NCBI GenBank assembly: GCA_947488605.1
Contig: CANKZJ010000003.1
Span: forward strand, 372,001-436,000
Reading direction: 5' to 3'
Length of the DNA: 64,000 nt
DNA from: an uncultured Paracoccaceae bacterium
Lineage (GTDB): Bacteria; Pseudomonadota; Alphaproteobacteria; Rhodobacterales; Rhodobacteraceae
Every line of letters begins with the position of its first letter. Position 1 is the first letter of the stretch. The notes below the pieces were generated by a model that saw only the letters and a list, made by a program, of their open reading frames with translations, ran no database searches and was not told where the DNA came from. This document shows positions 9,083-47,127 of the stretch, in pieces. Position numbers and translations under genes: made by a program.

Positions 9083-9087
9083 TAGAT
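9083..9087. repeat. Target-site duplication TAGAT, left copy
   Basis: Five bases directly before the left terminus of the element. The same five follow the right terminus at 47123-47127. A 5-bp duplication is the hallmark of Tn7/Tn5053-type transposition. Confidence 0.92.
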
Positions 9088-9113
9088 TGTCGAACGACAG
9101 TCAGTTGTGAACT
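9088..9113 (+). repeat. Left terminal inverted repeat
   Basis: 26 nt identical to the reverse complement of 47097-47122. It begins TGT as Tn7-family ends do, and its first 12 nt TGTCGAACGACA are themselves a near palindrome. The distal part, CAGTTGTGAACT, is the start of the repeated site found again at 9137. Confidence 0.93.
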
Positions 9114-9157
9114 TTCGACACAGTTTTTGCACTTATCGACATTCAGTTGTGAACTTT
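9095..9157 (+). repeat. Repeated transposase-binding sites in the left end
   Basis: Two 21-nt copies, 9095-9115 and 9137-9157, differ at one position (CGACAGTCAG... versus CGACATTCAG..., both continuing TTGTGAACTTT), spaced 42 nt apart. Between them, 9117-9141 matches the reverse complement of 47024-47048 at 20 of 25 positions. By analogy with Tn7 these are TnsB-binding sites. A weaker third copy may lie near 9347 (GCATTCAGCTGT). Confidence 0.8.
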
Positions 9158-9449
9158 AGTAGTTTTCAGCTCGTTCGGGTCTGGAAGTGAGTTCTGCACG
9201 GACCAGTCAAAAGCGCCGTTCTCTTGACGATGTACGTCAGCAGCGAAATGCACCAAGGGCGGCCTCGGTCATTCGCTACAAGTGAAAACCTTGAACAGTA
9301 GGGTACCAAAGCGGACCCTCGTAAGCTGTCAAGATTCAACACTTGTGGCATTCAGCTGTCCGCAAACCTATGGACCTTACAGCTGATATCTTGTGTAGTA
9401 TCTCAATCAATGCGTGCAGACGCGACGACAATAATTTGAGGTGACAGTT
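9158..9449. other. Left-end non-coding segment of the transposon
   Basis: About 290 bp with no supportable gene. It separates the transposon end from the vWA gene and must hold that operon's promoter. A GAGG ribosome site (9438-9441) sits 8 nt before ATG 9450. Nothing else is recognised. Confidence 0.5.
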
Positions 9450-10127
9450 ATGGACGAATTTGAACAAGAACCATTTATAGACGCAGTGTTACAGGAAAAC
9501 CCTGAACCAAGATGTCCGGTGTTATTACTATTGGATACCTCTTACTCAATGAATGGCGCACCGATCTCGGAACTTAATGAAGGATTGGCAACGCTTCGCG
9601 AAGAGTTGTTATCAGACTCACTGGCGGCAAAACGTGTTGAATTGGCGATGGTGACTTTTGGGCCAGTTGAGACCCGCAATGAGTTCGCAACAGTTGATAA
9701 CTTCTACCCAGAAACTTTGGAAGTTGGCGGCGCTACCCCGATGGGTGAAGCAATCTTATCCGGCTTGGAAATGCTTCGTGCGAGAAAAGATCACATCCGC
9801 TCGAACGGCCTTAAGATATTCCGACCTTGGGTCTTTCTGATTACTGACGGCGCGCCAACCGACAGTTGGGACGAAGCAAAACGCCGCGTTCACGAAGGCG
9901 AAGAACGCAAAGAATTCATGTTCTACGCAGTAGGTGTGGAACAAGCGGATATGGGTGTACTTGGGCAGATTGCTACTCGACAACCCCTCAAACTCAAAGG
10001 ACTAGCCTTCAAGGAACTGTTCCAGTGGCTGTCCAGTTCGCTAAGTGCTGTTTCGCAGTCAAACCCCGGTGATACCGTTCCACTTGCAAACCCCACGGCC
10101 CCCGATGGTTGGGCTGTAGCGGAATAG
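9450..10127 (+). CDS. TerY-like vWA-domain protein of a TerY-P triad
   Basis: 225 residues, almost entirely one von Willebrand A domain. The metal-ion-dependent adhesion site is complete: DTSYS at residues 29-33, the threonine in GGATPMGE, and the aspartate in [10 protein letters not shown]. It is cytosolic, with no signal peptide. ATG 9450 is chosen for its GAGG site; a GTG at 9441 is in frame. It is followed 4 nt later by a PP2C phosphatase and then a kinase. This is the order of the TerY-P triad, a predicted phospho-signalling module of tellurite/stress and conflict systems. The binding partner is unknown. Confidence 0.88.
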
Positions 10128-10131
10128 CGTC

Positions 10132-10878
10132 GTGGCGTGGCGGTGGGCGGCTGCGTCCGAGATTGGCACGTCTCACATACGGAATGGCGATCGGTTGCAA
10201 GATGCTTATGCCGTTTCGGTTATGCGGGACGATTGTATTTTTGCCATTGTTTCAGATGGCGCGGGAAGTGCTGAATTCGGCGCTTACGGCGCATGGCTTG
10301 TTTGCCGCACGTTAACAGTCCTTTTCCGCTGTTGGTTTCGTGACAATTCAAATTTGCCAAGCAACGAAGTGCTTTCTGATTGGATTGACGAAATTCGCGA
10401 CCGTGTTGCTGCGATTTCCGAAAAAAAAGAAAGCACACCCCGCCAATTTGCTTCGACACTGGCGCTTGTAGTTTCAACACCTGACGAAACGCTGGCCATG
10501 CATGTCGGTGATAGCGCAGTCGTCGGACGTTGCGGCGAAGAATGGGAAGTCCTCTGTTGGCCCGAAAATGGCGAATACGCGTCGACGACATACTTTGTGA
10601 CGGATGATCCTGAACCCCGTCTCAATATCGCACGGTACCCGAGCAAGCATGACGCTTTCGCGTTGTTCTCGGACGGCGTTGGCGATTTGGCACTATCTCA
10701 TTCAGAGCAGACGGCATCCCCTCAGTTCTTCAACCCAATGCTACGGCCTGTAGACAACGCGCCGAACGCGGGACGATTGCCAGAGTTATCGGCGAAGCTG
10801 CGGACCTATCTTGCCGGTCCTGCGATTTGTGAACGAACCGATGATGACAAGACGCTCATCCTTATTTCCGGGGGCTGA
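10132..10878 (+). CDS. PP2C-family protein phosphatase of the TerY-P triad
   Basis: 248 residues with the metal-binding aspartate motifs of PP2C enzymes in order: GDRLQDAYAV, SDGAGSAEFG, HVGDSAVVGR, SDGVGDLAL, and a terminal TDDDKTLI. It is cytosolic and predicted to remove phosphates placed by the kinase encoded 2 nt downstream. The start is GTG 10132, 4 nt after the vWA stop. The compact operon with matching vWA and kinase genes is what supports the triad role. Confidence 0.87.
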   Translation: MAWRWAAASEIGTSHIRNGDRLQDAYAVSVMRDDCIFAIVSDGAGSAEFGAYGAWLVCRTLTVLFRCWFRDNSNLPSNEVLSDWIDEIRDRVAAISEKKESTPRQFASTLALVVSTPDETLAMHVGDSAVVGRCGEEWEVLCWPENGEYASTTYFVTDDPEPRLNIARYPSKHDAFALFSDGVGDLALSHSEQTASPQFFNPMLRPVDNAPNAGRLPELSAKLRTYLAGPAICERTDDDKTLILISGG

Positions 10879-10880
10879 AC

Positions 10881-13031
10881 GTGCAAGACATCGTCATCGG
10901 GAAGGAACATGTTTCCGTTGCTGAACTGATTGATAAGGGCGGCGAAGGCGAAGTCTATGCAATCAAGGGACGGTCCGCCCAAGTAGTTAAGCTATATTAC
11001 GCCAAACTTCGCTTAAAACGGGAAGACAAAGTCCGGGCGATGGTGGGCGAAGGCCTTGCCGTCAAGACTGAACTGATCGCCTATCCTGGTGAAATTGTCA
11101 CGGACCGCAGCGGGAACTTTCTTGGCTTTGCCATGCGACGTGTGTCCGGCTGTAGGCCATTGCATGAGCTATACAGCCCCAAGTCGCGGATGCGCCATTT
11201 TCCCAAGGCGGACTATCGTTTCTTGATCCATGCCGCTGTGAACGTCGCGCGTGCCGTTGGAAAGGTGCACCAGACGGGATGTGTAATCGGTGATTTGAAC
11301 CATTCCGGAATTCTTGTTGCACCGGATGCAACCGTTGCCTTGATTGATGCTGATAGCTTTCAGTTCCGCTTAAACGGTACGTCCTACCCCTGCGTTGTTG
11401 GCGTGCCGGATTTCACGCCGCCAGAGCTTCACGGTAAGAACTTAGCAACTGTAGAGCGCACGATTGCTCATGACAGTTTCGGCCTAGCTGTCGCGGTCTT
11501 TCATTTGCTCTTCATGGGCAAGCACCCATACGCCGGAATCCGCAAAGGTCCCGAAACCTCAATGGGCGAAGATATTGCCCAAAACCTGTTCGCTTATTCC
11601 TTGCAGCGAAGTGCGCAAACACAATCCAAACCACCACCCGGCGCACTGACACTAGATCTGTTTCCAGAAGTTATGTCCAAGACGTTCGAAGCGGCTTTCG
11701 GACTAACACCGGGCGCGCGTCCAAGCGCGCTTGATTGGATACATGCCTTGTCGAAGCTGGAAAGCTCGCTAAGCCACTGTACAAAAGTTAAGACGCACTA
11801 CTACCCAAGTGCCGCCAAGGGCTGCGTCTGGTGCAAGCTGACGGCTAAGAGCGGTCTGGATATGTTCCCGGACCTGTCGGCGGTAATACCCAACATTCCG
11901 ACCGATGCGCGAGGCACAGAACAGGCCATTCGTGAGATAATGGCTTTCCGCTTCCCAGTAGCTGGTGATTTGCTTCCAACGGTTACGGTTCGCGGTGCCA
12001 GTTCTGCGCTGAACGAAGCCAAGAGCGGCAAGCATGGGCAAACGTTTTTGGGCTTGCTCATGATGGGCGGCGCGGTCGCCGGATTCATTTTCGCCGCGCC
12101 GGTGTTCTACATCTGGATTGGACTCGCAATCTGGGGGTGGTCCACATTCTCAGACCGAGAAGTCTCGCCCGGCCCATTTTTGCAGGCCTTTCGAGATTCC
12201 GATGAACGGGTACAGCGCGAGTTAAATACGTTTGTGCAGCGTAATGGCCTGACTGAGGCGGTTAGGGTTCGCGGCGATCTAGATGCCACCATTGCCGCCT
12301 ACAAAGGCCATAACGACGCGCTTGCCCGTGAGGTGATGATACTCAAATCTAACAGGGAGTCGCGTCAGCGACAGGCCTATCTTGATCGGTTCTCTGTACG
12401 GCGCGCGAACATTTCTGGTATCGGTCAAGCCAAGACCGCGACGTTGATTTCATTCGGGATCGAAACCGCAGGTGATGTGAGCCGTTCTGCTGTGAAGCAG
12501 GTCCCCGGATTTGGCGAAGTGATGACCGGAAAGTTGGTCGCATGGCGGCGTTGGCACGAGTCCCAGTTCAAATATGATAGGAATCCCAACGCCCAAGACG
12601 TTGCCCACGAAAGAGCGTTGCGGGGCCGTTTTGCCGCTGAGAAGGCTAAACTGGAATCCACGATCCGCAACGGATTGGGCACTCTTCGCAATGCGCGCGC
12701 GAAACTCGATTCCTTACCCACCCGCGCGAAAAACGATAGGGCGCTTTCCGATGCCCTAGCGACACGTGCACAAGCTGAACGGGACTTGAAGGAATTAGGT
12801 GCATCGGTTCCGGCCTCTACCGTTGCCTTGACCGTAGCGCTGCCACCACGACCTGCACGACAACCGCCCCGAGCGCCGCGCATCGCGAAACCAACTCCGA
12901 CGCGAAGAGCAGGAGCGACTGGTACACCAAGCTGCCCAAGATGTGGGTCCACCATGCGACGGCGTTCTGGGCGTTATGGACAGTTCTGGGGGTGTTCGAG
13001 GTATCCAAAATGCCGAGGGACTCGGAACTAA
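10881..13031 (+). CDS. Ser/Thr kinase with membrane, helix-hairpin-helix and zinc-ribbon regions (TerY-P triad)
   Basis: 716 residues. The kinase domain is N-terminal: glycine loop GGEGEVY near residue 20, candidate lysine in VVKLYY near 37, catalytic GDLNHSGI near 137 and metal-binding DAD near 156. The catalytic loop has GDLN instead of HRD, as in other divergent triad kinases. A hydrophobic stretch at about 385-425 suggests membrane attachment. Then come a coiled region, a helix-hairpin-helix near 515-560 (ISGIGQAKTATL and VPGFG), and a C-terminal topoisomerase-type C4 zinc ribbon (CPRCG...CSRYPKC). GTG start 10881. Confidence 0.87.
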   Translation: MQDIVIGKEHVSVAELIDKGGEGEVYAIKGRSAQVVKLYYAKLRLKREDKVRAMVGEGLAVKTELIAYPGEIVTDRSGNFLGFAMRRVSGCRPLHELYSPKSRMRHFPKADYRFLIHAAVNVARAVGKVHQTGCVIGDLNHSGILVAPDATVALIDADSFQFRLNGTSYPCVVGVPDFTPPELHGKNLATVERTIAHDSFGLAVAVFHLLFMGKHPYAGIRKGPETSMGEDIAQNLFAYSLQRSAQTQSKPPPGALTLDLFPEVMSKTFEAAFGLTPGARPSALDWIHALSKLESSLSHCTKVKTHYYPSAAKGCVWCKLTAKSGLDMFPDLSAVIPNIPTDARGTEQAIREIMAFRFPVAGDLLPTVTVRGASSALNEAKSGKHGQTFLGLLMMGGAVAGFIFAAPVFYIWIGLAIWGWSTFSDREVSPGPFLQAFRDSDERVQRELNTFVQRNGLTEAVRVRGDLDATIAAYKGHNDALAREVMILKSNRESRQRQAYLDRFSVRRANISGIGQAKTATLISFGIETAGDVSRSAVKQVPGFGEVMTGKLVAWRRWHESQFKYDRNPNAQDVAHERALRGRFAAEKAKLESTIRNGLGTLRNARAKLDSLPTRAKNDRALSDALATRAQAERDLKELGASVPASTVALTVALPPRPARQPPRAPRIAKPTPTRRAGATGTPSCPRCGSTMRRRSGRYGQFWGCSRYPKCRGTRN

Positions 13032-13168: not shown

Positions 13169-13561
13169 TTATCCATAATGCCACTCGATAATCGAGTCGT
13201 GCAGCATCCAAGGAGACGGTGCGCCAAGTTCATGCTCTGCCTTTCCAGTCAACGTTAAAGTACACCATTCTTCTTCGTCTGCATGCCAAGTCCCCAAAAC
13301 CTCCCCGTCTACTGTTAGCACGTCACCTTCGCAGTCGTTTGTGAAATACTGAGTCAGGATTATGCCGCCGCGGACAATGCCGCCAGCATCAATGTAAGCG
13401 GCGATTGATTTGAAATTCTCTTGTACGGCTGCGAGGGTGTTGCCTGAAAACCTGCCTTGCTCATAACCTTTGTACTTCAAAGTCCCATGGTACAGATTTG
13501 ACGCATCATCGGTGTCTATGTCGCAGGTTAAATCACCATGGGTTTCGGTGGTCAAAAGCAT
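13169..13561 (-). CDS. Small protein of unknown family, copy A
   Basis: 130 residues, soluble, acidic, with no signal peptide. It is about 62% identical by eye over its whole length to the protein at 18817. Shared blocks are YKGYEQGRFSG, YIDAGGIVR and PSPWMLHD. I do not recognise the family. It is the third gene of a minus-strand operon, 18 nt after the nuclease-like gene, with a GAGGG ribosome site. Conserved tryptophans and the recurrence beside a second effector-like gene suggest a binding or immunity/adaptor role; that is inference. Confidence 0.7.
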   Translation of the reverse strand: MLLTTETHGDLTCDIDTDDASNLYHGTLKYKGYEQGRFSGNTLAAVQENFKSIAAYIDAGGIVRGGIILTQYFTNDCEGDVLTVDGEVLGTWHADEEEWCTLTLTGKAEHELGAPSPWMLHDSIIEWHYG

Positions 13562-13579: not shown

Positions 13580-14743
13580 TTAGGCTGGGTATAACCCCCA
13601 TGAATAGATGCTGTGAGCGCCATCATCCATTATTTTGTCGAGCGACACGCCGTGCGCCGTTGAATAGCGCACCAGCGCTGTAAGCCCAGCAGGCAAGGCA
13701 TACTTAAGACCAAGTTGCGGACCTAAATCGCAAACGCCACCATCGTAGTATGAGGGCGTAAAATCGGGGCAGCGTTCCAGAAACTTAGCTTTGTCAGTCT
13801 CATCCATATCAATGTAACCAACGATTTTGGGGTGACTTTCCACCCGGATCTTCACGGTTAGGCCACCTGAGACCACTCTTGGTCCGTTTATGGCGAGCGG
13901 GATCAGCCTTCGTATGGTGTCCGCCGTTTCGGGCCAACAATCATGGGAAAACCAGGGGGACCGAACAACTTTATCAACCAGCAGGAGTTTTGCAGCAATT
14001 TCAGCGCGCCGTACTTTAGGTTGGTATACCTCCAACACCTTGCGAAGTTCGGATCGTTGGGTCCGGTCTTTAGGATTCAACGTACCAGTGGCTTCGATTG
14101 CTGCGATCATCGCCGTGGTTCGCCGTTCTTCCAAGCGATCTATCTGGAGGATGGCATTTGGATCATTTTTCAGCCCCCAACTTGCTTCGGAACAAAACAA
14201 TGACAATTCTTGGTCACTGAGGGTAATGTTCAGATCATTATCGAGCGGCAAGCGAAAAATCGTCGGCTTCGGCAGGGCTCGTTGCTCAAGTGACATGAAA
14301 AACTCAGGATAGTGTTTGTGTACAACCCACTGATGGTCGACAAGCATGCGCAGTAGATCATCCCACCCGTGGTAAAAAACTTCGAATTGACCGGTCGCTT
14401 TATGTTGTTCGGTGATTTTCTGGGCATGGCTTACAAGTTTTGCATCATGCGGCGCTGTGGTGATTACCACCAACTCATTCAACGCCGGCGTAAAATTCTT
14501 TGCGCGTTCAACCTCCGTATCAATGATTTTTGCGTCACATTGCTTGACTGCCTTGCATTGGACTCCGATCACACGATCTTTGTCCCGAATAACGACATCC
14601 ACGCCGTGCTGGGCTTGCCCTTTGCGGCCATAAAGAGTTGCTGATCCATCGGTGTGCCGGCTACCCCATAAATCCAACCCAAATATCTCAAACTGCTTAT
14701 CATCCGAGAACTCTGGGAGTGTTTTGCCTTTGTAGCTGCTCAT
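13580..14743 (-). CDS. Mrr/PD-(D/E)xK-type restriction endonuclease-like protein
   Basis: 387 residues. The N-terminal domain (about 15-150) carries the signature G-x-GQAQHGVDV followed by GVQCK, i.e. the D...QxK form of the PD-(D/E)xK nuclease core seen in Mrr-like and STAND-associated defence nucleases. The C-terminal half is unrecognised and may be a sensor or specificity part. It sits in an operon behind a membrane protein (22-nt gap) and before small protein A (18-nt gap). Likely a DNA-degrading effector of a defence operon. Confidence 0.75.
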   Translation of the reverse strand: MSSYKGKTLPEFSDDKQFEIFGLDLWGSRHTDGSATLYGRKGQAQHGVDVVIRDKDRVIGVQCKAVKQCDAKIIDTEVERAKNFTPALNELVVITTAPHDAKLVSHAQKITEQHKATGQFEVFYHGWDDLLRMLVDHQWVVHKHYPEFFMSLEQRALPKPTIFRLPLDNDLNITLSDQELSLFCSEASWGLKNDPNAILQIDRLEERRTTAMIAAIEATGTLNPKDRTQRSELRKVLEVYQPKVRRAEIAAKLLLVDKVVRSPWFSHDCWPETADTIRRLIPLAINGPRVVSGGLTVKIRVESHPKIVGYIDMDETDKAKFLERCPDFTPSYYDGGVCDLGPQLGLKYALPAGLTALVRYSTAHGVSLDKIMDDGAHSIYSWGLYPA

Positions 14744-17845: not shown

Positions 17846-18748
17846 TTAACTCAAAAAAGTGCGCAAAGCGTTCTGTAAGTCTGGCAACCTGCCAAGCCAG
17901 CTTGCTAAGCCCAATCCAGCAAATCCGCTGCTGGCTTCTATCGACCTACTGACGATACCGATTACCTTACCATTTTCATTGATGACTGGACCACCACTCA
18001 TGCCGCTCGGCCAATGCGCTTCAACTTCAAAAGCTGGCGTTGTGTTGGTTCTGTCACGTCCGTCCGGATATAGATTTACAATACGACCGTATGATGCATA
18101 CAAACCTTCCACGAGCGTCACATTTAATCTCGATCTAGGCGATGAAAGAGCTGAAATCTCTGGAAACCCAAGAGCTACAACACGGTCTCCCACCTTCGGC
18201 GGTTCATCCAGTCCGGCGGGTAATGTGTGAAGCTCATTTTTTAATGGTTGTGTCTTTAAAACGCACACATCCGCAAAGTCCACATCCAGCTCACCCCTAA
18301 GTTCTTTCATTGGATCACCACCATCACGTGTTGGCGTTTTACTTTCAGTGATCATAGGCAAGTCTTCGTCAGGAATATTGTGGGTTCCGAAAACGGCACC
18401 CATACCCAAAAACGCCTGAAGGCCAAATTCTGCTGGTACTTCGTAGTCCGCAGATGGACCAACAGCTGACATCAGGACAGCCTGATCTCGAAGATGAGAA
18501 ATCACATGATCGGCAGTGTAAAGGATACCTCTATCGTCAACACCGAAAGCTGTGCCCAGCCCATTCACAATGCTTCGCTCGTTAGTATACAACAACGGCA
18601 CCACCGCCTTGCGGATGTTGAATGGATCATCAACTAAGAAGAATTGCCGGTCAGGATCGCCGTTATCACGCGACCTAATGGTCCAGTCTGTTCTAAAATC
18701 AGATTTCGCTTGGTGCGTCCGAACAATGATCCAAGGATTTTTGCGCAA
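17846..18748 (-). CDS. Trypsin-like serine protease
   Basis: 300 residues with a chymotrypsin-fold protease core. The triad is readable as H81 in LYTADHV, D160 in DFADVCVLK and S251 in GMSGGPVINENGKVIGIVS. There is no signal peptide, so it is probably cytosolic, unlike the periplasmic Deg proteases, and there is no PDZ domain. Cytosolic trypsin-like proteases occur as effectors in bacterial conflict systems. The small-protein copy B lies 68 nt upstream on the same strand, suggesting an operon. Confidence 0.85.
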   Translation of the reverse strand: MRKNPWIIVRTHQAKSDFRTDWTIRSRDNGDPDRQFFLVDDPFNIRKAVVPLLYTNERSIVNGLGTAFGVDDRGILYTADHVISHLRDQAVLMSAVGPSADYEVPAEFGLQAFLGMGAVFGTHNIPDEDLPMITESKTPTRDGGDPMKELRGELDVDFADVCVLKTQPLKNELHTLPAGLDEPPKVGDRVVALGFPEISALSSPRSRLNVTLVEGLYASYGRIVNLYPDGRDRTNTTPAFEVEAHWPSGMSGGPVINENGKVIGIVSRSIEASSGFAGLGLASWLGRLPDLQNALRTFLS

Positions 18749-18816: not shown

Positions 18817-19212
18817 TCAGTGCTCTTCATACCATTCAACGATGTAGTCGTGCAGCATCCATGGTGACGGCGCTTCAAGTTCATGATCTGTTTGTCCTGT
18901 GAGAATGAAGAACGATGTCTCCATCTCGTCCATATGCCAACTGCCAAGCGCCTCACCGTCGATGGTCATCACATCGCCATTGTAAGGTTCATGAAAGTAT
19001 CCGGTAAGGAGGATACCGCTACGGACAATGCCTCCGGCATCTATATAGCCACAGATTGCCTTGAAGTTCTCTTGCAAGGCTGAAATGGACTTGCCCGAAA
19101 AACGGCCTTGTTCATAGCCTTTGTATTTCAAAGTTGCATGATACGAGTTCGGATTGCCACTGGCTTCCATATCGCAGGTCAAGTTGCCGTGTGTTTCGGT
19201 GATTACATGCAT
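18817..19212 (-). CDS. Small protein of unknown family, copy B
   Basis: 131 residues, paralogous to the protein at 13169 across its whole length (about 62% identity by eye). It has the same conserved blocks: ETHGNLTCD, YKGYEQGRFSG, YIDAGGIVR, PSPWMLHD. It is first in a probable operon with the trypsin-like protease. The same family next to a nuclease operon and a protease gene suggests a shared accessory role. No known function. Confidence 0.7.
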   Translation of the reverse strand: MHVITETHGNLTCDMEASGNPNSYHATLKYKGYEQGRFSGKSISALQENFKAICGYIDAGGIVRSGILLTGYFHEPYNGDVMTIDGEALGSWHMDEMETSFFILTGQTDHELEAPSPWMLHDYIVEWYEEH

Positions 19213-21517: not shown

Positions 21518-21527
21518 TGTCGTTACC

Positions 21528-21974: not shown

Positions 21975-22041
21975 CAGGAAACATCCCCTGATCATCGGCA
22001 TAGCTCCAATGCTTGCAGTAAACAAGTGTTGCGTTTGTTTT

Positions 22042-23914: not shown

Positions 23915-23920
23915 AGCACA

Positions 23921-34324: not shown

Positions 34325-34362
34325 TCTGTAGTTTCGCTCCCATCAAGTAACATTTGAACACA

Positions 34363-34389
34363 CAAGAGATTGACTCTCGTGATCTCTTG
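34363..34389. promoter_or_regulatory. Candidate Rrf2 operator
   Basis: Perfect inverted repeat CAAGAGAT (34363-34370) / ATCTCTTG (34382-34389) in the 81-bp spacer between the divergent Rrf2 and MFS genes. A direct repeat GATACAT follows at 34389-34407. Confidence 0.55.
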
Positions 34390-34405
34390 ATACATTTAGT
34401 GATAC

Positions 34406-36501: not shown

Positions 36502-36527
36502 ACACGAACAACCGAAAGGACTTTCCC

Positions 36528-37460
36528 ATGACAACGATCCACCGGGTCGCGCTTCTGGCCGCGACCACCATAAGCCTTTTGACTGCAACACCGCTTTGGG
36601 CGCAGGAAACAGACATCACCGACCAAACCATCACCGTCGAGGATCAGACCTTTCGATATCTGGCCGCAGGCGACGACGGACCTGCCATCGTACTGCTGCA
36701 TGGATGGCCACAAAGCGCGGATGAGTTCCGTCACATCATGCCTGATCTTGCCGAGGACTACAGGGTCTTTGCCCCTGACCTCAGTGGCATCGGCGGTTCA
36801 ACCAATCCCGATCAGGATTGGACGAAACAAGCGCTTGCCGATGACATCCACGGCTTTGTCGGCGCGCTTGGTTTGGAGAACCCCCTTGTCGCAGGACACG
36901 ATATCGGCGGCATGGTGGCCTATGCCTATGGGCGGCAATACCCTAACGAGTTGGCCGGTGTGATCGTCATGGACGTGCCTCTGCCCGGCTTTGCCCCATG
37001 GGACTGGGTGGTCAGCATCCCGAACTCCTGGCACTTCGATTTCCACGATCAACCCATCGCCGAAGACCTCGTGGCGGGCCGGGAGGGCGCGTACATCCGG
37101 TACTTCATCGACCATGTTGCCAAGCACCCGGAGGCGATTTCCGACGCGGACGTCGCCATTTATGCGGAAGCCTATGGAACGCCAGAGCGGTTGCGCGCAG
37201 GTTTTGAGCTTTATCGCGCATTCGATCAAGATCAGGCTCACTTTGAAGCCATGACTGGTCCGTTCGATGTGCCGCTGCTTTTGATTGGTGCCGAAACGAC
37301 TATGGCCCCGGCGCTTGAAACCATGCGTGAGGCGCTAGAGGTGGGTGGTACCACAAACGTGGAGACGGCAGAGATTGAAGATTCCGGCCACTGGATTATT
37401 GAAGAGCAGCCAGGTGCGACTGTGAAGCTGATAGAGGCATTTGCCGAAAAGGTGTTCTGA
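36528..37460 (+). CDS. Secreted alpha/beta hydrolase, epoxide hydrolase-like
   Basis: 310 residues. Signal peptide (VALLAATTISLLTATPLWAQ), then a hydrolase fold with oxyanion HGWPQS, nucleophile aspartate in GHDIGGMVAY and catalytic His in DSGHWIIEEQP, the pattern of epoxide hydrolases and haloalkane dehalogenases. Periplasmic. Start ATG 36528 with GAAAGGA ahead. 26 nt after the methyltransferase. The following spacer 37461-37611 has no supported gene. Confidence 0.85.
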   Translation: MTTIHRVALLAATTISLLTATPLWAQETDITDQTITVEDQTFRYLAAGDDGPAIVLLHGWPQSADEFRHIMPDLAEDYRVFAPDLSGIGGSTNPDQDWTKQALADDIHGFVGALGLENPLVAGHDIGGMVAYAYGRQYPNELAGVIVMDVPLPGFAPWDWVVSIPNSWHFDFHDQPIAEDLVAGREGAYIRYFIDHVAKHPEAISDADVAIYAEAYGTPERLRAGFELYRAFDQDQAHFEAMTGPFDVPLLLIGAETTMAPALETMREALEVGGTTNVETAEIEDSGHWIIEEQPGATVKLIEAFAEKVF

Positions 37461-38137: not shown

Positions 38138-38515
38138 CTATTGCGGTGCGCCGACGTGATAGGGCGTTACGAGGCAATCTGCCGGGATGCGCCAAACGGA
38201 GCTTAGCTTATGGATCATGTCCACCGTCAAAGCTCTCTTTCTGTCCAAAACCTCCAACGCGTCGGATTGAGAGCCAAACAGGTTTGCGAGATCAGCAGGT
38301 ACTTTCCCTGCGCCCTCCATGTGCTGCAGTAGCAATTCAACCGGCTCCATCGGCCGATTTGGATGGAACTGTGTTTCATAGTGCTCCACCAATGCGCAAA
38401 GAATATCGAATTCATCGCCATCGGGCGTGTTGTGTTCGGCACCCCAAAGTGCATCAATTCGAGCCAGTGTGACGGTAAGGTCATCATTGTTACGGATAGG
38501 TCGTATTTCAGGCAT
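38138..38515 (-). CDS. HigA-like antitoxin/regulator with XRE domain
   Basis: 125 residues. N-terminal region (IRPIRNNDDLTVTLARIDALWGAEHNTPDGDEFDIL) and a C-terminal helix-turn-helix (DLANLFGSQSDALEVLDRKRALTVDMIHKLSSVWRIP) of the HigA/COG5499 type. No HigB/RelE-type toxin is found within 200 bp on either side. Probably an orphan antitoxin or a stand-alone regulator. Confidence 0.75.
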   Translation of the reverse strand: MPEIRPIRNNDDLTVTLARIDALWGAEHNTPDGDEFDILCALVEHYETQFHPNRPMEPVELLLQHMEGAGKVPADLANLFGSQSDALEVLDRKRALTVDMIHKLSSVWRIPADCLVTPYHVGAPQ

Positions 38516-39109: not shown

Positions 39110-39433
39110 TTAGATGTTTTTGTACCAATTTGGCCCGCTCGATGCCTCCAGAAACATCATGAAGCCGCCGAACGCACTGATTGCTGCCATGAGTATCATG
39201 CCCCACATCAACGGTGTGGCCGGTGATAGTTTCAAGATCAGTACGCAGATAAAGACAGATACAATGCCCAGCACAATTGCATATGCGACGACATGGGCCT
39301 TGCTGCGCATCCCGTTGCGCGTCTTGAAACCTTTGACAGCATTACATTGTGGGCAGACGACAGCCTGCGGATCGATGTTAGACTTGCAGAATGGGCAGGT
39401 TTGTGTCGGTGCGTCATTCATGTTCGAGCTCAT
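39110..39433 (-). CDS. Zinc-ribbon membrane protein
   Basis: 107 residues: an N-terminal zinc ribbon (CPFCKSNIDPQAVVCPQC) and two or so membrane helices (VVAYAIVLGIVSVFICVLIL, MWGMILMAAISAFGGFMMF). A similar layout, with different sequence, occurs in the gene at 46292. Divergent from the XRE gene at 39501, with the operator adjoining its start codon. Confidence 0.65.
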   Translation of the reverse strand: MSSNMNDAPTQTCPFCKSNIDPQAVVCPQCNAVKGFKTRNGMRSKAHVVAYAIVLGIVSVFICVLILKLSPATPLMWGMILMAAISAFGGFMMFLEASSGPNWYKNI

Positions 39434-39468
39434 AATTATCTACTTTTTAGATAATTTAATATCTAGAT
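39434..39468. promoter_or_regulatory. Candidate XRE operator
   Basis: A perfect inverted repeat AATTATCTA (39434-39442) / TAGATAATT (39448-39456), 5-nt spacer, with a second ATCTAGAT palindrome at 39461-39468. It immediately adjoins the start codon of the zinc-ribbon gene and lies upstream of the XRE gene, so the XRE protein probably represses both. Confidence 0.6.
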
Positions 39469-39500
39469 TAGCGCTGTTGCGAAAGGGGTTTCGCAACAGC

Positions 39501-39758
39501 ATGGCCAAAACGATACGAAGTAAGGGCCATCAGGCGTTGTGTGAGGCAATTATTGCAGCACGCAACGATGCCGGACTCACACAAGCAGGACTTGCCAAAA
39601 GACTGAGGTGTCATCAGTCTTTTGTTGCCCGCGTCGAAAGTGGTGAACGCCGGGTGGACGTCATTGAGCTAATAGTGCTCGCGCGAGCGATCGGTTTATC
39701 AAGCATCAAATTCCTCGAAATTGCCGAGCAGGCTACCCCACCCGATCACAGGATATAA
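39501..39758 (+). CDS. XRE-family transcriptional regulator
   Basis: 85 residues, almost all one helix-turn-helix XRE domain (AIIAARNDAGLTQAGLAKRLRCHQSFVARVESGERRVDVIELI). ATG 39501 is the start where the domain begins; the frame is open far upstream as an unrelated run. Likely controls the divergent zinc-ribbon gene. Confidence 0.82.
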   Translation: MAKTIRSKGHQALCEAIIAARNDAGLTQAGLAKRLRCHQSFVARVESGERRVDVIELIVLARAIGLSSIKFLEIAEQATPPDHRI

Positions 39759-40563: not shown

Positions 40564-41319
40564 ATGTTTAACGAACAAGATACCTTGTGCACTGCGCAAG
40601 CCCATGACGCTATGGCCGGCGTAACCGCCAACTATGTCACCCCACCCCCGTTTTCAGTGCCGCTGAAAAGCCGTGCGACCCGAAAGTTTTCCTGGAAAAA
40701 CCGTGATCGATGCAGCGGTTCAATTGTGGTCTCGTTGAATGGCGTCATGATCACGCTGCACTTCGAAAGTAAACTTGAGCTGATGGTGATCATGTTCTTG
40801 CTTGGGCGCGGTGACGTTGTCGAAATCTGGGATCAACCGCCTCATGTTACCTATCTGAAGGCCGATGGTAGCATTGGAAAGCACACATACGACTTCCGCG
40901 TTGTTCTCGACGACAACAGCGTTATCGCCATCGCGGTCAAACCAAAGGCCAAAGCTGCAAAGGCAGCTTTCCAGGCTGATATGGCCCGTGTCGCGCAAGC
41001 CACGCCAAAATCCTTTGCCGACCACGTCGTTGTTATGTCAGAGGCAGACTTCACTCGTGCCCAAGTGATAAACGCGACGCGCTACTTTGAATTTAGCAAA
41101 GACATAGATCTTGAGGCTGATGTCGTCGTCCGAGATGTCATCAAGGACATAAATGGCGCGATCTCAATAGCCGAGGTTGTTGGTCAGACTGGGCTTGCAG
41201 GACGCGCATATCGCGCAATTGTCCGAGCAGTATTCGCGAATGAGATCTCGCCAGTCGCAGATGGAGTCATTTCCCACAAAACAATTGTTCTGCCGGCTCA
41301 TGCTGGAGGACAACACTAA
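40564..41319 (+). CDS. tnsA: TnsA-like transposase endonuclease subunit
   Basis: 251 residues. Endonuclease that cuts the non-transferred strands so the element leaves by cut-and-paste. The nuclease core is readable: E68 in HFESKLE, D110 in KHTYDFRV and K126 in AIAVKP. In Tn7 TnsA the equivalent stretch has glutamine two residues before the lysine (AIQ-x-KP); here it is A124. The C-terminal region that contacts TnsC follows. ATG 40564; stop shares one base with tnsB. Confidence 0.83.
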   Translation: MFNEQDTLCTAQAHDAMAGVTANYVTPPPFSVPLKSRATRKFSWKNRDRCSGSIVVSLNGVMITLHFESKLELMVIMFLLGRGDVVEIWDQPPHVTYLKADGSIGKHTYDFRVVLDDNSVIAIAVKPKAKAAKAAFQADMARVAQATPKSFADHVVVMSEADFTRAQVINATRYFEFSKDIDLEADVVVRDVIKDINGAISIAEVVGQTGLAGRAYRAIVRAVFANEISPVADGVISHKTIVLPAHAGGQH

Positions 41320-43433
41320 TGTTTAGTTATCACCCTTGCGACATCGTGGCGATCAACGCAAAGCGACACAATATCGTTTTCCAAACCAAGGATGCGATTG
41401 GTGTTCGACCCGAAGATGATCCGGATGCGCCGACCGAGACCTTCAGCAATACGGCCATTGAGGCACTGCGCCGCACCAACCAATGGCGCTACTTTCCGAA
41501 CCTTGAGGCTCAAAACCGACTACTGCGTCGCACACAAAAGCAAGGTTTTGCGCTTCTAAGCGCATCGAAGAAGGATCGCGAGAAAGCCATTTTCATCTTT
41601 ATGGAAATTATGGCTTTGAAGCAGCTACGAGATGAGGGCGTCATCGTCCTCACACCCGAAAGCCTGGAGGAAAACTGGCACAAATTCACCAGTATCCTAA
41701 ACGATCGCGAGATCGCACGACGGTTGTGCGGACGTGCACTTCGTGCCGGTGAAGAACTCCCACTTCGAAAACCACATCGCCCAGCGACGCTTCTTAAGAA
41801 GATGAAGCGGCTGAGCACCCACAATTATGACATCGGATGCTTGCTTCCGCAGTATGGGCAAGACAAGTCGGATGCTGGACGATTGTCGGCGGAAACTGAA
41901 CAGTTCATCTCGGACTACATTCGGGCATATGCCGACCCTGACCAACCAAAAAAGTCCCACATCGCTTGCGAATGTATCACTGCGATGAAAGAGGAAAACC
42001 AACGGCGGGTAAAAGCTGGAGAACCAGAACTAGTCGCATCTGAACGGTCAGTTGAGCGCAGGATCGAGAAACTTGATCCCTTTGAGATCACCTGCTTCCG
42101 CGAGGGTGTTGATGAGGCCAGGCGGCGATATGCATCTGCCAAAGGGGGTGTTGCCGTTCAGTTCCCGCTGGAGGGCGTCGAATTGGATGCTTGGATGGGT
42201 GATATCCGAACGATCTTCACACGGCTCGGAATCATGCAGATGTTGCCGAAAGAGATTCAAGATGCGGTGCCTCGAGGCCGGCGCTGGATCTATGCCGCCA
42301 TTGACCGCGCCACGCGCGTCGTCGTTGGTCTTCGGATTGCTGAGACCCAGAGTTCAGAAGAAGCCCGCAAAGCTCTCAACATGGTGTTTGTTGACAAGAC
42401 AGAGTTCGCACTGGCAGCGGGGGCTGAAAGCCATTGGGCATACTTCGGCGGCATGCATCAACTTGCATGTGACACAGGCAGTGACTTCATTTCTGACGAC
42501 TTCACCACAGCAGTGAATACATGTGGTTCGAGTATCTCTTTTCCGCCTGTCAAAGTACCAGAGCTCCGTGGAAGGGTTGAACGCCTGTTCGGCACAATGG
42601 CCAGGCAGCTAATGCCGCGTCTGACCGGTCGAACCTTTTCGAGCATTGAGGAGCGTGGCGATCACCCTACCGAAGACCGTGTCGTTCTTGACGATGATGA
42701 CCTTCTGCGCATTCTCGTTCTCTATGTCGTGGACTTCTATCACCATCAACGACATCGCGGTTTGGGCGGTCAAACACCCGCCAATAGATGGGCAGAGTTG
42801 GCAGAGAACTATGGGGTGTCAGAGCCACCGGACATCAATACACGCCGGGTGGCCTTTGGCATTGAGTTCAACCGTAAACCTTCAAAAATGGGTGTCGTTT
42901 GCTACGGCAATCATTATTCCTGCCCCGAGCTTGAGGTTTGCTGGCGCAAACATCCCAAACGTAGTGTTCGCTTTCGCATTGATCCGGCAAATATCGGGGC
43001 TGTGTCCGTCGAAATCGATAAGATGTGGTATCAAGCCAATGCGGTGAATGGCGAAGAATTGGAGGGGGTGACGCTCCCAGAATGGATCCAAGGGCTCCGC
43101 GATATTCGCAAAAAATACGCGAATGAAGCCTTGCTGACGCTCAAACTGCGCAACGACACCATCGCGAAGATTAAGGCTATCAATACCGCTGCGCGTAAGC
43201 GGGCACAGCTACTCCCTATAGAGTTCTCCGAAGCGCGCCTGAAAGAACTTGAGAAGCGGCTTTGTGCTGGCACGATGTTCGACCATCCACAGACTCCACC
43301 CGTCCAAAGTGACGAGGTGCCATTTGGCCGAAAGGTGCATCCGCACATCCCTGAGCTCGACAACCAAGACCCCGAGGTGACTGATCAGCGTCCGACTGAT
43401 CCAGACGAAGGTGAATGGAAAATCGAGGAGTAG
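41319..43433 (+). CDS. tnsB: TnsB/TniA-type DDE transposase
   Basis: 704 residues. Recognises the transposon ends and joins the 3' strands to target DNA. Integrase-core residues are D290 (VELDAWMGD), D385 (CDTGSDF) and E421 (GRVERLFGT), a DD(35)E spacing. An N-terminal winged-helix region and a C-terminal beta region and tail, which would contact TnsC, surround it. Full length. The repeats at both ends are its likely binding sites. Confidence 0.92.
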   Translation: MFSYHPCDIVAINAKRHNIVFQTKDAIGVRPEDDPDAPTETFSNTAIEALRRTNQWRYFPNLEAQNRLLRRTQKQGFALLSASKKDREKAIFIFMEIMALKQLRDEGVIVLTPESLEENWHKFTSILNDREIARRLCGRALRAGEELPLRKPHRPATLLKKMKRLSTHNYDIGCLLPQYGQDKSDAGRLSAETEQFISDYIRAYADPDQPKKSHIACECITAMKEENQRRVKAGEPELVASERSVERRIEKLDPFEITCFREGVDEARRRYASAKGGVAVQFPLEGVELDAWMGDIRTIFTRLGIMQMLPKEIQDAVPRGRRWIYAAIDRATRVVVGLRIAETQSSEEARKALNMVFVDKTEFALAAGAESHWAYFGGMHQLACDTGSDFISDDFTTAVNTCGSSISFPPVKVPELRGRVERLFGTMARQLMPRLTGRTFSSIEERGDHPTEDRVVLDDDDLLRILVLYVVDFYHHQRHRGLGGQTPANRWAELAENYGVSEPPDINTRRVAFGIEFNRKPSKMGVVCYGNHYSCPELEVCWRKHPKRSVRFRIDPANIGAVSVEIDKMWYQANAVNGEELEGVTLPEWIQGLRDIRKKYANEALLTLKLRNDTIAKIKAINTAARKRAQLLPIEFSEARLKELEKRLCAGTMFDHPQTPPVQSDEVPFGRKVHPHIPELDNQDPEVTDQRPTDPDEGEWKIEE

Positions 43434-43437
43434 GTGT

Positions 43438-44427
43438 ATGGATCAGGGTAATTTAGACCGCATCGCCAAAGTTATCGTTAAACTGCGCGCAAAGGTTTTG
43501 CTGACTGACAATCATAGAAAGTTGGAGGAGGCCATTGGTCTCCTCATAGCAACTCGCCGTGCTGAACTGGAAGCTGGGGCGGCACAAGAAGCCTATGGCG
43601 TTGCTGTTGTCGGCAACCCCGGCTCCGGTAAATCGACAGCCTTGGCCCATCTTTTCCGGACGCATCCAACGCTACAGCTGCTTCAGCCTGATGTTGTCCA
43701 GGCTGACGTAGCCAGCTTTCTGGTGCCTAGTCCCTCAACTTTAAAAATGGTCGGATTGTCATGCCTGACAGGGTTGGGATACCCGTTGAGGCGCGATCGG
43801 ACTGCTGGGATTATCTGGGAGCTGGTGCAGCACCATTTGAAGCAGCGACAAACGCTGCTCCTGCACCTGGATGAAGCGCAGGATTTGATGCGGACCCGCA
43901 GTGCGCGTGAAATGACCGCTGTGGTCAATACGCTGAAGTCTCTGATGCAGGGCAAAGATTGGCCTGTCGGATTGGTTCTGAGTGGTCTTCCGGACCTGAA
44001 GGAACTTCTCAACAATGACACGCAGCTTGGGCGTCGTTTTGAACCCATCGAGTTTGCACCGATCAGTTTTGAAGCCGATGGCGGCAACGTCGCCAAAATC
44101 GTCGAACGATATGGCCTCGATGCTAATTTGAGCGTCGATGAAGGTATTCTCGGACGGGACGCGGTCCAGAGGATCATTTATTCTGGGTCAAGCGAACTCG
44201 GCATTACAATTCAGCTGATCATTGAAGCGATCCGCGAAGCAATGCTGTGTGGGTCATCTCACCTGAGCAGAGAGCACTTCATTCGGGCTTTCTCCAGGCG
44301 ATCTGGCTGCGTTGATGACCTGAATCCCTTCGTAAGGGAGGATTTCACAGAAATTGATCCGAGGCTATTGTTGACCACGAATGAAGACTTGGTGACGGCC
44401 GATACCGTTTGGAGCGGCCTGAAATGA
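43438..44427 (+). CDS. tnsC: TnsC/TniB-type AAA+ ATPase
   Basis: 329 residues. ATP-dependent regulator that links the target selector to the transposase. Walker A VVGNPGSGKST near residue 57 and Walker B LLLHLDEAQDLM near 140. The start is ATG 43438 with GGAG ahead, 4 nt after tnsB; an earlier ATG at 43411 would overlap tnsB. Closer to the short TniB than to the long Tn7 TnsC by length. The stop overlaps the tniQ ATG. Confidence 0.9.
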   Translation: MDQGNLDRIAKVIVKLRAKVLLTDNHRKLEEAIGLLIATRRAELEAGAAQEAYGVAVVGNPGSGKSTALAHLFRTHPTLQLLQPDVVQADVASFLVPSPSTLKMVGLSCLTGLGYPLRRDRTAGIIWELVQHHLKQRQTLLLHLDEAQDLMRTRSAREMTAVVNTLKSLMQGKDWPVGLVLSGLPDLKELLNNDTQLGRRFEPIEFAPISFEADGGNVAKIVERYGLDANLSVDEGILGRDAVQRIIYSGSSELGITIQLIIEAIREAMLCGSSHLSREHFIRAFSRRSGCVDDLNPFVREDFTEIDPRLLLTTNEDLVTADTVWSGLK

Positions 44428-46262
44428 GCCGACTTGGGCTGACTCTGCCACATCGCCAATACGAGACACCCTATTCATATGTTTCACGTCTGGTTGCGTT
44501 GAATGGCGTAAAGTTCGCTGAAGACTTTGTGTCTGACATCGGATTGTCATGGCAAGCGATCTGGGAGGGCGATGAAGCAGCCGTCCGCGACATGGCCTGT
44601 CTTGCATCGCAAGATCCCGAGGCTTTGCTTAGATGCAATATCCACCGCTTATCGGCAACGGAGCTCATAGTTGGGGGAGAGATCTTCCCTAGCACGAACT
44701 TGCAGCGGACAAGTTTGAAAGTGTGCCCTCGATGCCTACGGGAGGACCAGCAAAAGTATGGTCAATTCGGTCCATATTTCAGGGTATACTGGGCTACTTC
44801 ACACTCTCGGGTTTGTACGCACCATGGGATGCTGTTGCTTACTGTTCCGAAAGGTGTTCACCGACGGAGCGCCATGGATACATGGGGGCAACTTAGCGAC
44901 CAGTGGGCGCTTATCGAGGACGAAGCGCTGGTCCCCTATGATAGGCTCAGCGCAGGTTTTCCACAATATCAGATAAAACGCTTGGCGGGTAAGCATTCTA
45001 ACGTTTGGTTGGATCAGTTCCCTTTGGCTATAGCTAGTCAGCTTTGCGAATATTTAGGAATGGCGCTTCTGCATAGTGACAGGCGATCGACCGCTTCGTG
45101 TACTTCAGAAGAGCTAGTGATCGCGATTGAACGTGGTTTCGACGCTGCACAACATGGCCCAACTAGAATTTGGAATGCGCTAAGGGAAGTCCGACGAAGT
45201 TCGACCGCAATGGGCAGCACTTTCCTCAGCGATTTCGGGATTTTGCATAACTGGCTCAAAAAGACCAAGCAGGATGATATCGACCACCGACCCATCTTGG
45301 ATGCCTTCGCGCAATTCGGTTTTCAGGAGTATTCATTTGCACCAGGCGAACGCTTTCTAGGACTAGTTTGCCCAGAAAGAAGGAATTACTGCCCGGTGTC
45401 ACTTGCGCAGGACTATGGTCTGGACATTGTGATGGCGCGAAAAATCCTACGAGGATTGCAAGGCGACTCCAAGCCGTACAAGACTCCTATTGTCAAAGCG
45501 GATTGGGCTGGCCCCTTCGTTGAACGTTTTTGTCGGTCATTGCTGCCTCACGAAACGGAGGCGGCTCTGGGTGTTGATAGGGCGGTATTAGCGCGTCTGG
45601 TGGAGAACAAATTGCTCGCAGCGCCGATCAAAATAGCGGGCTGCAATGATCGCTATGATCCCGATGACCTTTCAAGGTTTCAACAGAAAATATTTGCGCG
45701 CAGCAAACCCGTCAACACGCAATCCGACGGTTTCGCGTTGATGAGAGAATTGCGAACAATGTTCTCTATTCGACTGGATACAATGTGCCAATGGATCTGC
45801 TCAGGCTTTGTGACAAAGGTTGAGCACTGCAAGGACGCGACTGCGTTTCAGGACATTGCTCTGAGCATTGACGAGGTGCGTAGCAAGTTGGCGCAATCGC
45901 GGCAGCCCGACTTCTCCAAGGCAGAGCTAAAATCGATCCTCTGCGTCAACGACACCACGACTGCACACCTGGTCCGCGAGAAGTTGATCTCCGGCGAAAA
46001 ACTGAAAAACAGCTTCAACAACAAGATCGAGCATCGGTTCTGGCCTAAGGATATCGATGACTTTCTCGAAGAATATGTATCGCTTGGGCTTTTCGCAAAG
46101 ACCCTGTTCTTGCAGCCATTCGCCGCCCGTCAACGGCTCGCGAGGAATGGTGTTCTGCCTTTGGAACTTCCGCCAAAGTGCAGCCGGATTTTTCTGCGTA
46201 AGGATCTGACAGAGTGCGTATTGACGGTGCCGCTCGATTGGCGGAGTCTAGTTAACTCGTAG
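44424..46262 (+). CDS. tniQ: TniQ/TnsD-type target selector
   Basis: 612 residues. The N-terminal TniQ domain has zinc-binding pairs (CPRCLRED and a VCTHHG box) and the conserved PYSYVSRL opening. The long remainder is expected to bind target DNA, as the C-terminal half of TnsD does at its chromosomal site. Its length, above that of Tn7 TnsD (about 500), fits a sequence-specific selector rather than a short CRISPR-partner TniQ. ATG 44424 overlaps the tnsC stop. The insertion beside tRNA-Lys suggests that tRNA gene is its target. Confidence 0.85.
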   Translation: MSRLGLTLPHRQYETPYSYVSRLVALNGVKFAEDFVSDIGLSWQAIWEGDEAAVRDMACLASQDPEALLRCNIHRLSATELIVGGEIFPSTNLQRTSLKVCPRCLREDQQKYGQFGPYFRVYWATSHSRVCTHHGMLLLTVPKGVHRRSAMDTWGQLSDQWALIEDEALVPYDRLSAGFPQYQIKRLAGKHSNVWLDQFPLAIASQLCEYLGMALLHSDRRSTASCTSEELVIAIERGFDAAQHGPTRIWNALREVRRSSTAMGSTFLSDFGILHNWLKKTKQDDIDHRPILDAFAQFGFQEYSFAPGERFLGLVCPERRNYCPVSLAQDYGLDIVMARKILRGLQGDSKPYKTPIVKADWAGPFVERFCRSLLPHETEAALGVDRAVLARLVENKLLAAPIKIAGCNDRYDPDDLSRFQQKIFARSKPVNTQSDGFALMRELRTMFSIRLDTMCQWICSGFVTKVEHCKDATAFQDIALSIDEVRSKLAQSRQPDFSKAELKSILCVNDTTTAHLVREKLISGEKLKNSFNNKIEHRFWPKDIDDFLEEYVSLGLFAKTLFLQPFAARQRLARNGVLPLELPPKCSRIFLRKDLTECVLTVPLDWRSLVNS

Positions 46263-46291
46263 CCCGTTTTTTGCAAAGAGGTCGAAGTCTC

Positions 46292-46912
46292 ATGCCGCAA
46301 GTTAATCAGCGCTCCAATGAAGACGAAACAGACTTTGATGAACACAGATTGCCAATTACAGATGACCGCCTCTGCGTTGAATGCAGCCAACCTTTGCCAA
46401 TACAGGCCACACGATGTAGTCATTGTGGCATTTCTCAAAAAACTTGGCTTCGGCGTGTCGTGACGCTGGGGGTAGTGCTCGGTGTACTACTTTCGGTTTT
46501 GTCGCTGGTTGCAATAGCGTTTCAGGTGAGCGACTTTGTCAAAGACACGGTGGGACGGGACGTAAATTTCGCGATTTCATCGCCGCGATGCTCGCAAAAT
46601 CAATATAGCGCTACGCTGTGGAATCTGGAAACCGATCAACCACTTAAATTGGAAAGCGTGCGGCTAGTAGCTATAAACGGAGAACCGAGTTCCGTTGATT
46701 TAGTAGGTGGCACAGGAAGTTCGCGTAGTGAGATTGATGAACTCCTCCCGGTTGGCCTCCCATGGTCAGTCGAATTTTTTAGGGGTGGTCTCAATTTAGA
46801 CTACGCAAATTTAAACTGTGCCGTCTGCAACCTGGATTTTGAAGTAACGGTCGCCCGCTTCAATGGGTCAAGGCCGACAGCGAAGACATTCTCCTGCCAA
46901 GCAGTCCGATAG
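46292..46912 (+). CDS. Zinc-ribbon membrane protein at the transposon's right end
   Basis: 206 residues: an N-terminal zinc ribbon (CVECSQPLPIQATRCSHC), one membrane helix (VVTLGVVLGVLLSVLSLVAIAF), then a beta-rich outer domain with several cysteines. ATG 46292, with GAGG ahead, is chosen over a TTG at 46271. It begins 29 nt after tniQ on the same strand, so it may be cotranscribed. Role in transposition is not evident. Confidence 0.65.
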   Translation: MPQVNQRSNEDETDFDEHRLPITDDRLCVECSQPLPIQATRCSHCGISQKTWLRRVVTLGVVLGVLLSVLSLVAIAFQVSDFVKDTVGRDVNFAISSPRCSQNQYSATLWNLETDQPLKLESVRLVAINGEPSSVDLVGGTGSSRSEIDELLPVGLPWSVEFFRGGLNLDYANLNCAVCNLDFEVTVARFNGSRPTAKTFSCQAVR

Positions 46913-47023
46913 TCACTCATCAAAGTTTAGAATAGTATTCGGCGTCTTTGACGGCTGACCCAGCACACACGGAATTTCTGGACGTCATCCGCACAGCACC
47001 GCTCTGCTGAATGACAAACTGGG

Positions 47024-47048
47024 TGTCGAAAAGTGCAATTCATGTGTC
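47024..47048 (-). repeat. Internal shared site in the right end
   Basis: Reverse complement matches 9117-9141 at 20 of 25 positions, keeping GACACA, TTGCACTT and TCGACA. Its orientation mirrors the left-end copy, as expected of TnsB-binding sites. Confidence 0.7.
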
Positions 47049-47096
47049 TATGAAATTATCTAAGTATCTGATTTGTAACATTTATGGTATTTTTTT

Positions 47097-47122
47097 AGTT
47101 CACAACTGACTGTCGTTCGACA
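47097..47122 (-). repeat. Right terminal inverted repeat
   Basis: 26 nt identical in reverse complement to 9088-9113; ends ...GTTCGACA at 47122. Directly followed by TAGAT. Confidence 0.93.
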
Positions 47123-47127
47123 TAGAT
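47123..47127. repeat. Target-site duplication TAGAT, right copy
   Basis: Matches 9083-9087. Marks the outer limit of the element. Confidence 0.92.

Follow-up and report, generated by a model that had tools for sequence, protein, structure and literature searches.

In Tn7, as the passages on end organisation in PMC11406308 describe it, the attachment (att) site lies outside the right end, which by convention is the end upstream of the transposition genes; the right-end sites partly overlap and the left-end sites are spaced. The TnsD-like proteins of protein-guided insertion possess multiple helix-turn-helix (HTH) domains, and the TniQs of CRISPR-associated transposons (CASTs) consist mostly of the core (PMC10293859). 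Protein-guided, tRNA-directed Tn7 elements have already been mentioned in print, in sections of PMC8649781 and PMC11406308. Our literature search found no published description of a tRNA-Lys site for a Tn7-like element, and the Tn7 passages of a Roseobacter paper and of one on tRNA genes in Alphaproteobacteria describe no such element. Here we analyse a 64,000-nucleotide stretch of DNA from an uncultured Paracoccaceae bacterium (the window; assembly GCA_947488605.1, contig CANKZJ010000003.1, positions 372,001 to 436,000), in which an insertion behind a tRNA-Lys gene is very likely a complete, protein-guided Tn7-like transposon of the TnsABC+TnsD type with tRNA-Lys(UUU) as its att site.

Boundaries, ends and transposition genes

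Both junctions were read in the sequence and place the Tn7-like element at positions 9088–47122 of the window (38,035 bp). Its termini are formed by a perfect 26-bp inverted repeat, TGTCGAACGACAGTCAGTTGTGAACT, with the tRNA-side copy at 9088–9113 on the forward strand (of "right-end" type by the Tn7 convention, as worded in the end-organisation passages of PMC11406308) and the far copy at 47097–47122 on the reverse strand. The 5-bp target-site duplication TAGAT flanks both copies on their outer sides (9083–9087 and 47123–47127, forward strand). Shuffling the sequence that follows tniQ 200 times never produced a duplication and inverted-end pair as good as this one; the pair is no chance match. 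At up to three mismatches, the outermost 20 bases have exactly two copies in the whole host genome, both of them at the ends of the element, and TnsC gives a single match in that genome at E ≤ 0.001. An earlier reading made from the DNA letters (the sequence-only reading) had proposed a complete 38,035-bp Tn7-like transposon with exact ends; its coordinates proved correct throughout, including the 26-bp repeats and both copies of TAGAT. The G+C content inside the element (52.8%) is close to that outside (54.4–55.0%), so composition is little informative.

The proposed att site is an intact tRNA-Lys(UUU) gene (9002–9077, forward strand; ARAGORN, Rfam RF00005), and the element starts 10 bp past its CCA end. 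Since that end lies at 9077 and the duplication begins at 9083, five bases (CTTTA) separate the tRNA from TAGAT.

Both ends carry repeats that resemble TnsB-binding sites. On the tRNA side, three 21-bp repeats follow one another without gaps (starting at 9092, 9113 and 9134; 9092–9154, forward strand), and the copies of this end in G005 and G033—related genomes are named here by our own handles—are in the same phase. The far end, on the reverse strand (47011–47118), has two spaced repeats of "left-end" type, the terminal one (47098–47118) and a second about 87 bp inward (47011–47031). The motif used for scanning was built from the tRNA-side repeats of the window together with the G005 and G033 copies, and scores at that end by construction; with this motif made from the other end, the inner far-end repeat reaches 15.5 bits, the 99% point of the shuffles lying at 11.7. 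The internal shared sites named in the sequence-only reading were thus recovered, the inner far-end one being weak alone. As it is the tRNA-side end that lies upstream of tnsA, the orientation rule of Tn7, with the target beside the "right" end, holds, and the asymmetry of the ends in the window's element is, judged from these repeats, as in Tn7. Inverted ends with TnsB-site-like arrays, the far-end array being weak, and a 5-bp duplication place the element among the Tn7-like transposons.

The genes tnsA, tnsB, tnsC and tniQ stand in a single row on the forward strand (40564–46262), their frames touching or overlapping; the operon lies at the far end of the element, and nearly all of the cargo is found between tnsA and the end at the tRNA. 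Each of the four genes is open over its full length, as the sequence-only reading had it, and the conserved residues and motifs of TnsA, TnsB and TnsC align with those of eight relatives. Residue invariance was judged on nine aligned rows, the window's proteins and those of the eight relatives from the same operon position. For TnsA (40564–41319, 251 aa) the match to NF033179 is weak and under the cut-off, Pfam gave no match and the PDB search nothing usable (one match, E 1.4); despite this, the invariant E72, D110 and K126 mark it as a TnsA endonuclease. In the TnsA of Tn7, glutamate, aspartate and lysine residues of this kind form the catalytic set. TnsB (41319–43433, 704 aa; D290, D385 and E421 invariant) matches the TnsB of PseTnsAB and of Tn6677 in a search against solved structures (PseTnsAB, E 5.8e-20), which identifies it as a DDE transposase. 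TnsC (43411–44427, 338 aa) is an AAA+ ATPase with a match to PF05621 TniB above the cut-off (8e-17), and keeps Walker A (GNPGSGKS at 68) and Walker B (LLLHLDEA at 149).

The fourth protein (44409–46262, 617 aa) is a TniQ/TnsD-type target selector, by its match to PF06527 above the cut-off at the N-terminus (2.4e-17) and by its fold. A structural model of 612 residues, starting from the ATG at 44424 and built with 22 aligned TniQs, has a mean predicted local distance difference test score (pLDDT) of 88.9 and a predicted template modelling score (pTM) of 0.70, and its top 11 Foldseek matches are the TniQs of I-F3 systems (best E 1.0e-5). Following the TniQ core, the C-terminal half is predicted to hold an array of about five winged-helix-like or HTH units, read from secondary structure, which could read the tRNA gene. 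Its length and this array, set beside the domain description in PMC10293859, make the window's TniQ TnsD-like.

Relatives behind tRNA-Lys and tRNA-Arg genes

The element has relatives 3′ of tRNA-Lys in G064 (20.5 kb, duplication TCAAT, 5 nt behind the tRNA), G027 (25.4 kb, TTTTT, 7 nt) and G018 (31.7 kb, TCAAT, 6 nt). The same operon follows a partial copy of tRNA-Lys in G075, where an island-like stretch lies in front, and no far end was found for it. The proteins of this Lys group are 35–46% (TnsB) and 25–29% (TniQ) identical to those of the window. Operon order, orientation and tRNA site are shared among the relatives, with a 5-bp duplication in the delimited ones; independent elements occupy the same site in the same orientation, the pattern of TnsD-type homing to a fixed chromosomal site. 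For the four Lys-site elements whose ends are known, the best second distal repeat sits at offsets 95, 96, 95 and 94 (as good in 111, 2, 36 and 41 of 500 shuffles); scanning the distal end of G027 with a proximal seed gave a better repeat at offset 74, with offset 95 second.

A tRNA-Arg(ACG) gene was located by ARAGORN upstream of the operon in seven loci (G011, G077, G023, G012, G064-C32, G032 and G066). Ends supported by a target-site duplication were obtained for G077 (5 nt behind the tRNA), G012 (4 nt) and G066 (4 nt), with 2, 0 and 0 of 200 shuffles as good. Altogether 25 stretches were assembled, 14 were tried for ends and 11 were given a shuffle control; in seven of these 11 loci, the window included, the end pair was matched by at most two of 200 shuffles. 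Another end-like sequence of a different type, recognised by eye, starts at once behind the far end and duplication of the elements in G064, G027, G077 and G012, which suggests that the elements stack.

In the TnsB tree (22 rows, fragments G063_C15 and G074 left out) the five Lys-assigned elements fall on one side of a branch with support 99/98, and the window and G064 are sisters. Their TnsBs are 46% identical, whereas their TniQs are 25% identical, a contrast that would fit faster evolution or exchange of the selector. The TniQ tree comprises 25 rows, the fragment G074 left out. Within the trees, G032_C1a and G032_C1b_2310 are one gene present twice, the Lys label of G075 was assigned from a partial tRNA copy together with an overlap between contigs, and the Arg labels of G032_C1b_39959 and G012_C12b were assigned from stacking.

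Copies of the window's own end family were found at tRNA-Lys in two genomes of the same genus. Yoonia maritima (G005) has an identical 26-bp end, one base further on; its contig breaks off after 4.8 kb of the element, in which an Avs3a-like gene is the first of the large cargo genes (L087 701–3706; PADLOC 4.3e-105), and a search of the genome gave no second good copy of the end. The tRNA-side end of G033 differs from the window's by one base; 60 kb of sequence there yielded neither a far end (at most six mismatches) nor a tns gene. A search of genome contigs with the exact end pattern returned one match, in Y. maritima, as the differing base of G033 lies inside the pattern; viral contigs gave none.

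Matches to TnsB were found in 56 of 394 genomes of a family-wide draw that included the window's own (E ≤ 1e-30). Within the genus, represented by 56 genomes (own included), TnsB was matched in 24 at 1e-10 and TniQ in 23, 22 of them over the cut-off. A comparison of TnsC with plasmids gave 86 records, a Phaeobacter inhibens plasmid among them, all below 60% identity and the best of those listed at 39.7%. Further TniQ loci have tRNA-Cys, -Ser, -Gln and -Pro genes close by, which are candidate targets.

The transposon reading and its alternatives

The ends, the target-site duplication, the core genes and the position of the relatives at the tRNA together bear out the Tn7-like reading, and on these sequence features the element is probably working. 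Beyond them we infer that TniQ reads the tRNA gene, that the chemistry is cut-and-paste and that the element is active at present. The TniQ/TnsD-type protein would bind the tRNA-Lys(UUU) gene in its 3′ part via the predicted C-terminal winged-helix array of the protein and recruit TnsC, and TnsC would bring in the TnsA and TnsB that occupy the two dissimilar ends. Once cut out, the element would be joined about 5 bp past the CCA end with a 5-bp stagger, its closely spaced ("right") end towards the tRNA. As the tRNA is left intact, it would stay open to retargeting by other elements, which would stack behind it.

A number of observations weigh against this reading, beginning with the target site. 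The sequence-only reading had proposed looking for an empty site in related genomes, predicted as tRNA-Lys followed by CTTTATAGATACTGATTG; the joined 25-base junction (at most three mismatches) was present in none of the 56 genus genomes. The search thus yielded neither a confirming nor a differing junction, and with no empty allele the duplication is deduced from the element itself and its relatives. There is also no sign of recent movement. The right flank, a block containing ugd (47.2–52.3 kb), lies in opposite orientation some 5–8 kb from tRNA-Lys in six of six congeners compared, so the neighbourhood is rearranged and the joined flank is of no use for an empty-site test there; as a guide to the empty site, this flank was abandoned. 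In the window, the ugd-containing gene block spans 47182–52280. A query of the left flank and tRNA matched 55 of the 56 genus genomes, some of them through short tRNA stretches only, and the 3′ flanks were read at the 30 best loci (the window's own included, two stopping at a contig border) and at further loci. Several of these show end-like sequences 10–13 nt past the CCA end by eye; use of the site was counted as established only where Tns genes and an end pair are present.

The same side of the balance holds lone tRNA-side ends in G033 and G005. The sequence-only reading had taken ends occurring independently of the remainder as evidence against itself, and this part applies to the extent that two such ends exist; both stand at the same tRNA-Lys site, for which reason we read them as remnant or incompletely read copies, that of G033 probably a decayed element. 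Three of the 14 loci tried (G009, G027-C5 and G075) were dropped before the shuffle control, and the best second ends of G011, G023, G064-C32 and G032 were reached by 161, 20, 164 and 177 of 200 shuffles. The inner far-end repeat of the window is matched by 111 of 500 shuffles and the distal repeats of G077 and G012 by 227 and 158, so none of the three is significant. When the first proximal site is sought as a plain repeat, the result is not significant in six of seven elements (151–492 of 500 shuffles as good; the window, 0 of 500), and a crowded proximal array is therefore established for the window family (window, G005 and G033) only. Support for the Lys group is weak in the TniQ tree (79/66), and the Arg-site elements are not one clade in either tree, two (TnsB) and four (TniQ) changes being needed. 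As for the model of TniQ, the template modelling scores of its Foldseek matches are low over the whole model (TMq 0.18–0.28), and the short MerR-type or Xis winged-helix matches are insignificant (4j2n_C, E 0.85, root-mean-square deviation 1.5 Å over 49 columns).

The missing empty site, the lone ends in congeners and the single copy would also suit a formerly mobile element that is now immobile and kept as an island. The four genes, all open and with their conserved residues, the perfect inverted ends of 26 bp and the perfect duplication speak for the contrary, and we hold this alternative to be unlikely, the most serious of those considered. Rather less probable is that the site is chosen by another factor, a cargo-coded DNA-binding protein or the structure of the tRNA locus, with TniQ a mere adaptor. 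The sections of PMC10293859 on Tn6022 provide a precedent, in which TniQ bridges TnsF, and an open reading frame of unassigned family follows tniQ on the forward strand (46271–46912), between tniQ and the far end. Inspection by eye shows CxxC pairs and a stretch of hydrophobic residues in its 213-aa product, which has no Pfam or PADLOC family match and a sole NCBIfam match at E 0.07; this absence of a DNA-binding family match, and the winged-helix-like array that the 617-aa TniQ itself has in the model, argue against such a factor.

The 3′ ends of tRNA-Lys genes in this genus are seemingly used by integrase islands as well, as partial copies of the tRNA 3′ end occur kilobases downstream in G073, G075, G012, G004, G003, G025 and G015 (read in the sequence for G025, G073, G012 and G075, and taken from the match listing for G004, G003, G015 and one copy in G073). 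That the Tns genes are passengers of a tyrosine-integrase genomic island at tRNA-Lys is nevertheless extremely improbable: in a whole-genome search with the tRNA stretch, the far junction showed no tRNA 3′ copy, only the inverted repeat; no integrase was matched among the proteins scanned (family scans covered part of the element's open reading frames); and terminal inverted repeats with a 5-bp duplication are Tn7-type. We give equally little credence to a CAST guided to tRNA-Lys by a CRISPR RNA. Such an element would have the same Tn7-like core, and the passages of PMC11406308 on CASTs describe tRNA att sites as common among them, but the scanned proteins include no Cas family, 9088–47122 holds no repeat array, and the TniQ belongs to the long TnsD type instead of the short type.

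With the Tn7-like transposon preferred, the broader group of relatives at Lys and Arg sites is a more interesting lead than the single element. We tentatively suggest, as a possibility short of an even chance, that they form part of a large radiation of Tn7-like transposons without CRISPR, so far undescribed, in this marine genus and its family, in which the MerR/Xis-type winged-helix array of TnsD would be a swappable reader of tRNA genes (Lys-UUU, Arg-ACG and perhaps others) and different end types would stack behind one tRNA. If so, the protein code by which tRNA genes are recognised could be read off directly from a set of close TniQ pairs whose tRNA targets differ. The compact four-protein set, with exact ends, a known site and relatives at another tRNA, offers a starting point for work on TnsD–tRNA gene recognition and possibly a homing integration tool for marine Rhodobacterales, and tRNA genes would appear as safe landing sites for several related elements of the genus.

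Cargo and comparison with known systems

Gene-family scans place the roughly 30 kb of cargo announced by the sequence-only reading inside the element. From the tRNA side, it begins on the forward strand with a VWA-domain protein (9441–10127; PF00092), a PP2C-type phosphatase (10132–10878; PF13672) and a protein-kinase-like protein with a C-terminal Zn ribbon (10881–13031; PF00069 below cut-off, PF01396); in a tblastn comparison of these three genes only, none was found in the Lys- and Arg-site relatives. The reverse strand then encodes a nuclease-like protein (13580–14743) with a weak PADLOC match (E 5.9e-5) to the end of the ZorD model, a SWI2/SNF2 helicase with an Mrr-like nuclease, and no Pfam or NCBIfam family, a trypsin-like protease (17846–18748; PF13365) and a cardiolipin-synthase-like protein of the phospholipase-D family (19383–20936; PF13091, TIGR04265 below cut-off); a DUF4236 protein is listed between the ZorD/Mrr-like protein and the protease. 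The first section of the cargo is flanked on either side by one of two paralogous 130-aa genes (13169–13561 and 18817–19212), which are 76% identical in DNA over 72 nt.

A metabolic and regulatory block follows (21023–37460), in which the family scans recognised two MarR, two anthrone-oxygenase-like, ferric-reductase-like, DJ-1/PfpI, AraC, SDR, CMD, dienelactone hydrolase and Rrf2 proteins, as well as a methyltransferase, an alpha/beta hydrolase and an MFS transporter, a pump whose best NCBIfam match is the EmrB subfamily, under the cut-off. Closer to the operon, a reverse-strand protein (38138–38515) matches positions 1–119 of the 402-position PD-Lambda-2_B model (PADLOC E 6.9e-25). The remaining PADLOC matches are generic or weak, and no defence system is claimed for this reason. 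An Xre-type HTH protein upstream of tnsA (39114–39758, forward strand; PF01381) is a possible regulator, going by its sequence family.

Among described systems, the closest solved TnsB sequences are those of PseCAST, with its PseTnsAB fusion, and Tn6677 (type I-F3); no Cascade genes were found in the window's element. The CASTs of types I-B2 (Tn7744/PmcCAST) and I-D (CyCAST) resemble it in protein-guided insertion 3′ of a tRNA by a long multi-HTH TnsD, as the sections of PMC10293859 on these systems report, and differ in that no CRISPR-Cas was found here, a single TniQ is present and the site is tRNA-Lys instead of tRNA-Val or tRNA-Leu. The same sections put CyCAST insertions 30–33 nt behind the tRNA, compared with about 5 bp here. 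From prototype Tn7, marked by glmS and TnsE, the element differs in its site (tRNA-Lys rather than glmS), in that no TnsE was recognised among the proteins scanned, and in the position of the tns operon, which lies at the far end and reads outward, with the cargo between the target-side end and tnsA. It shares with Tn7 the TnsA, TnsB and TnsC proteins with a long TniQ-domain selector, the 5-bp duplication and the intact target, and, in the terms used in the end-organisation passages of PMC11406308, crowded repeats at the target-side end with spaced ones at the other, and a target side upstream of the tns genes.

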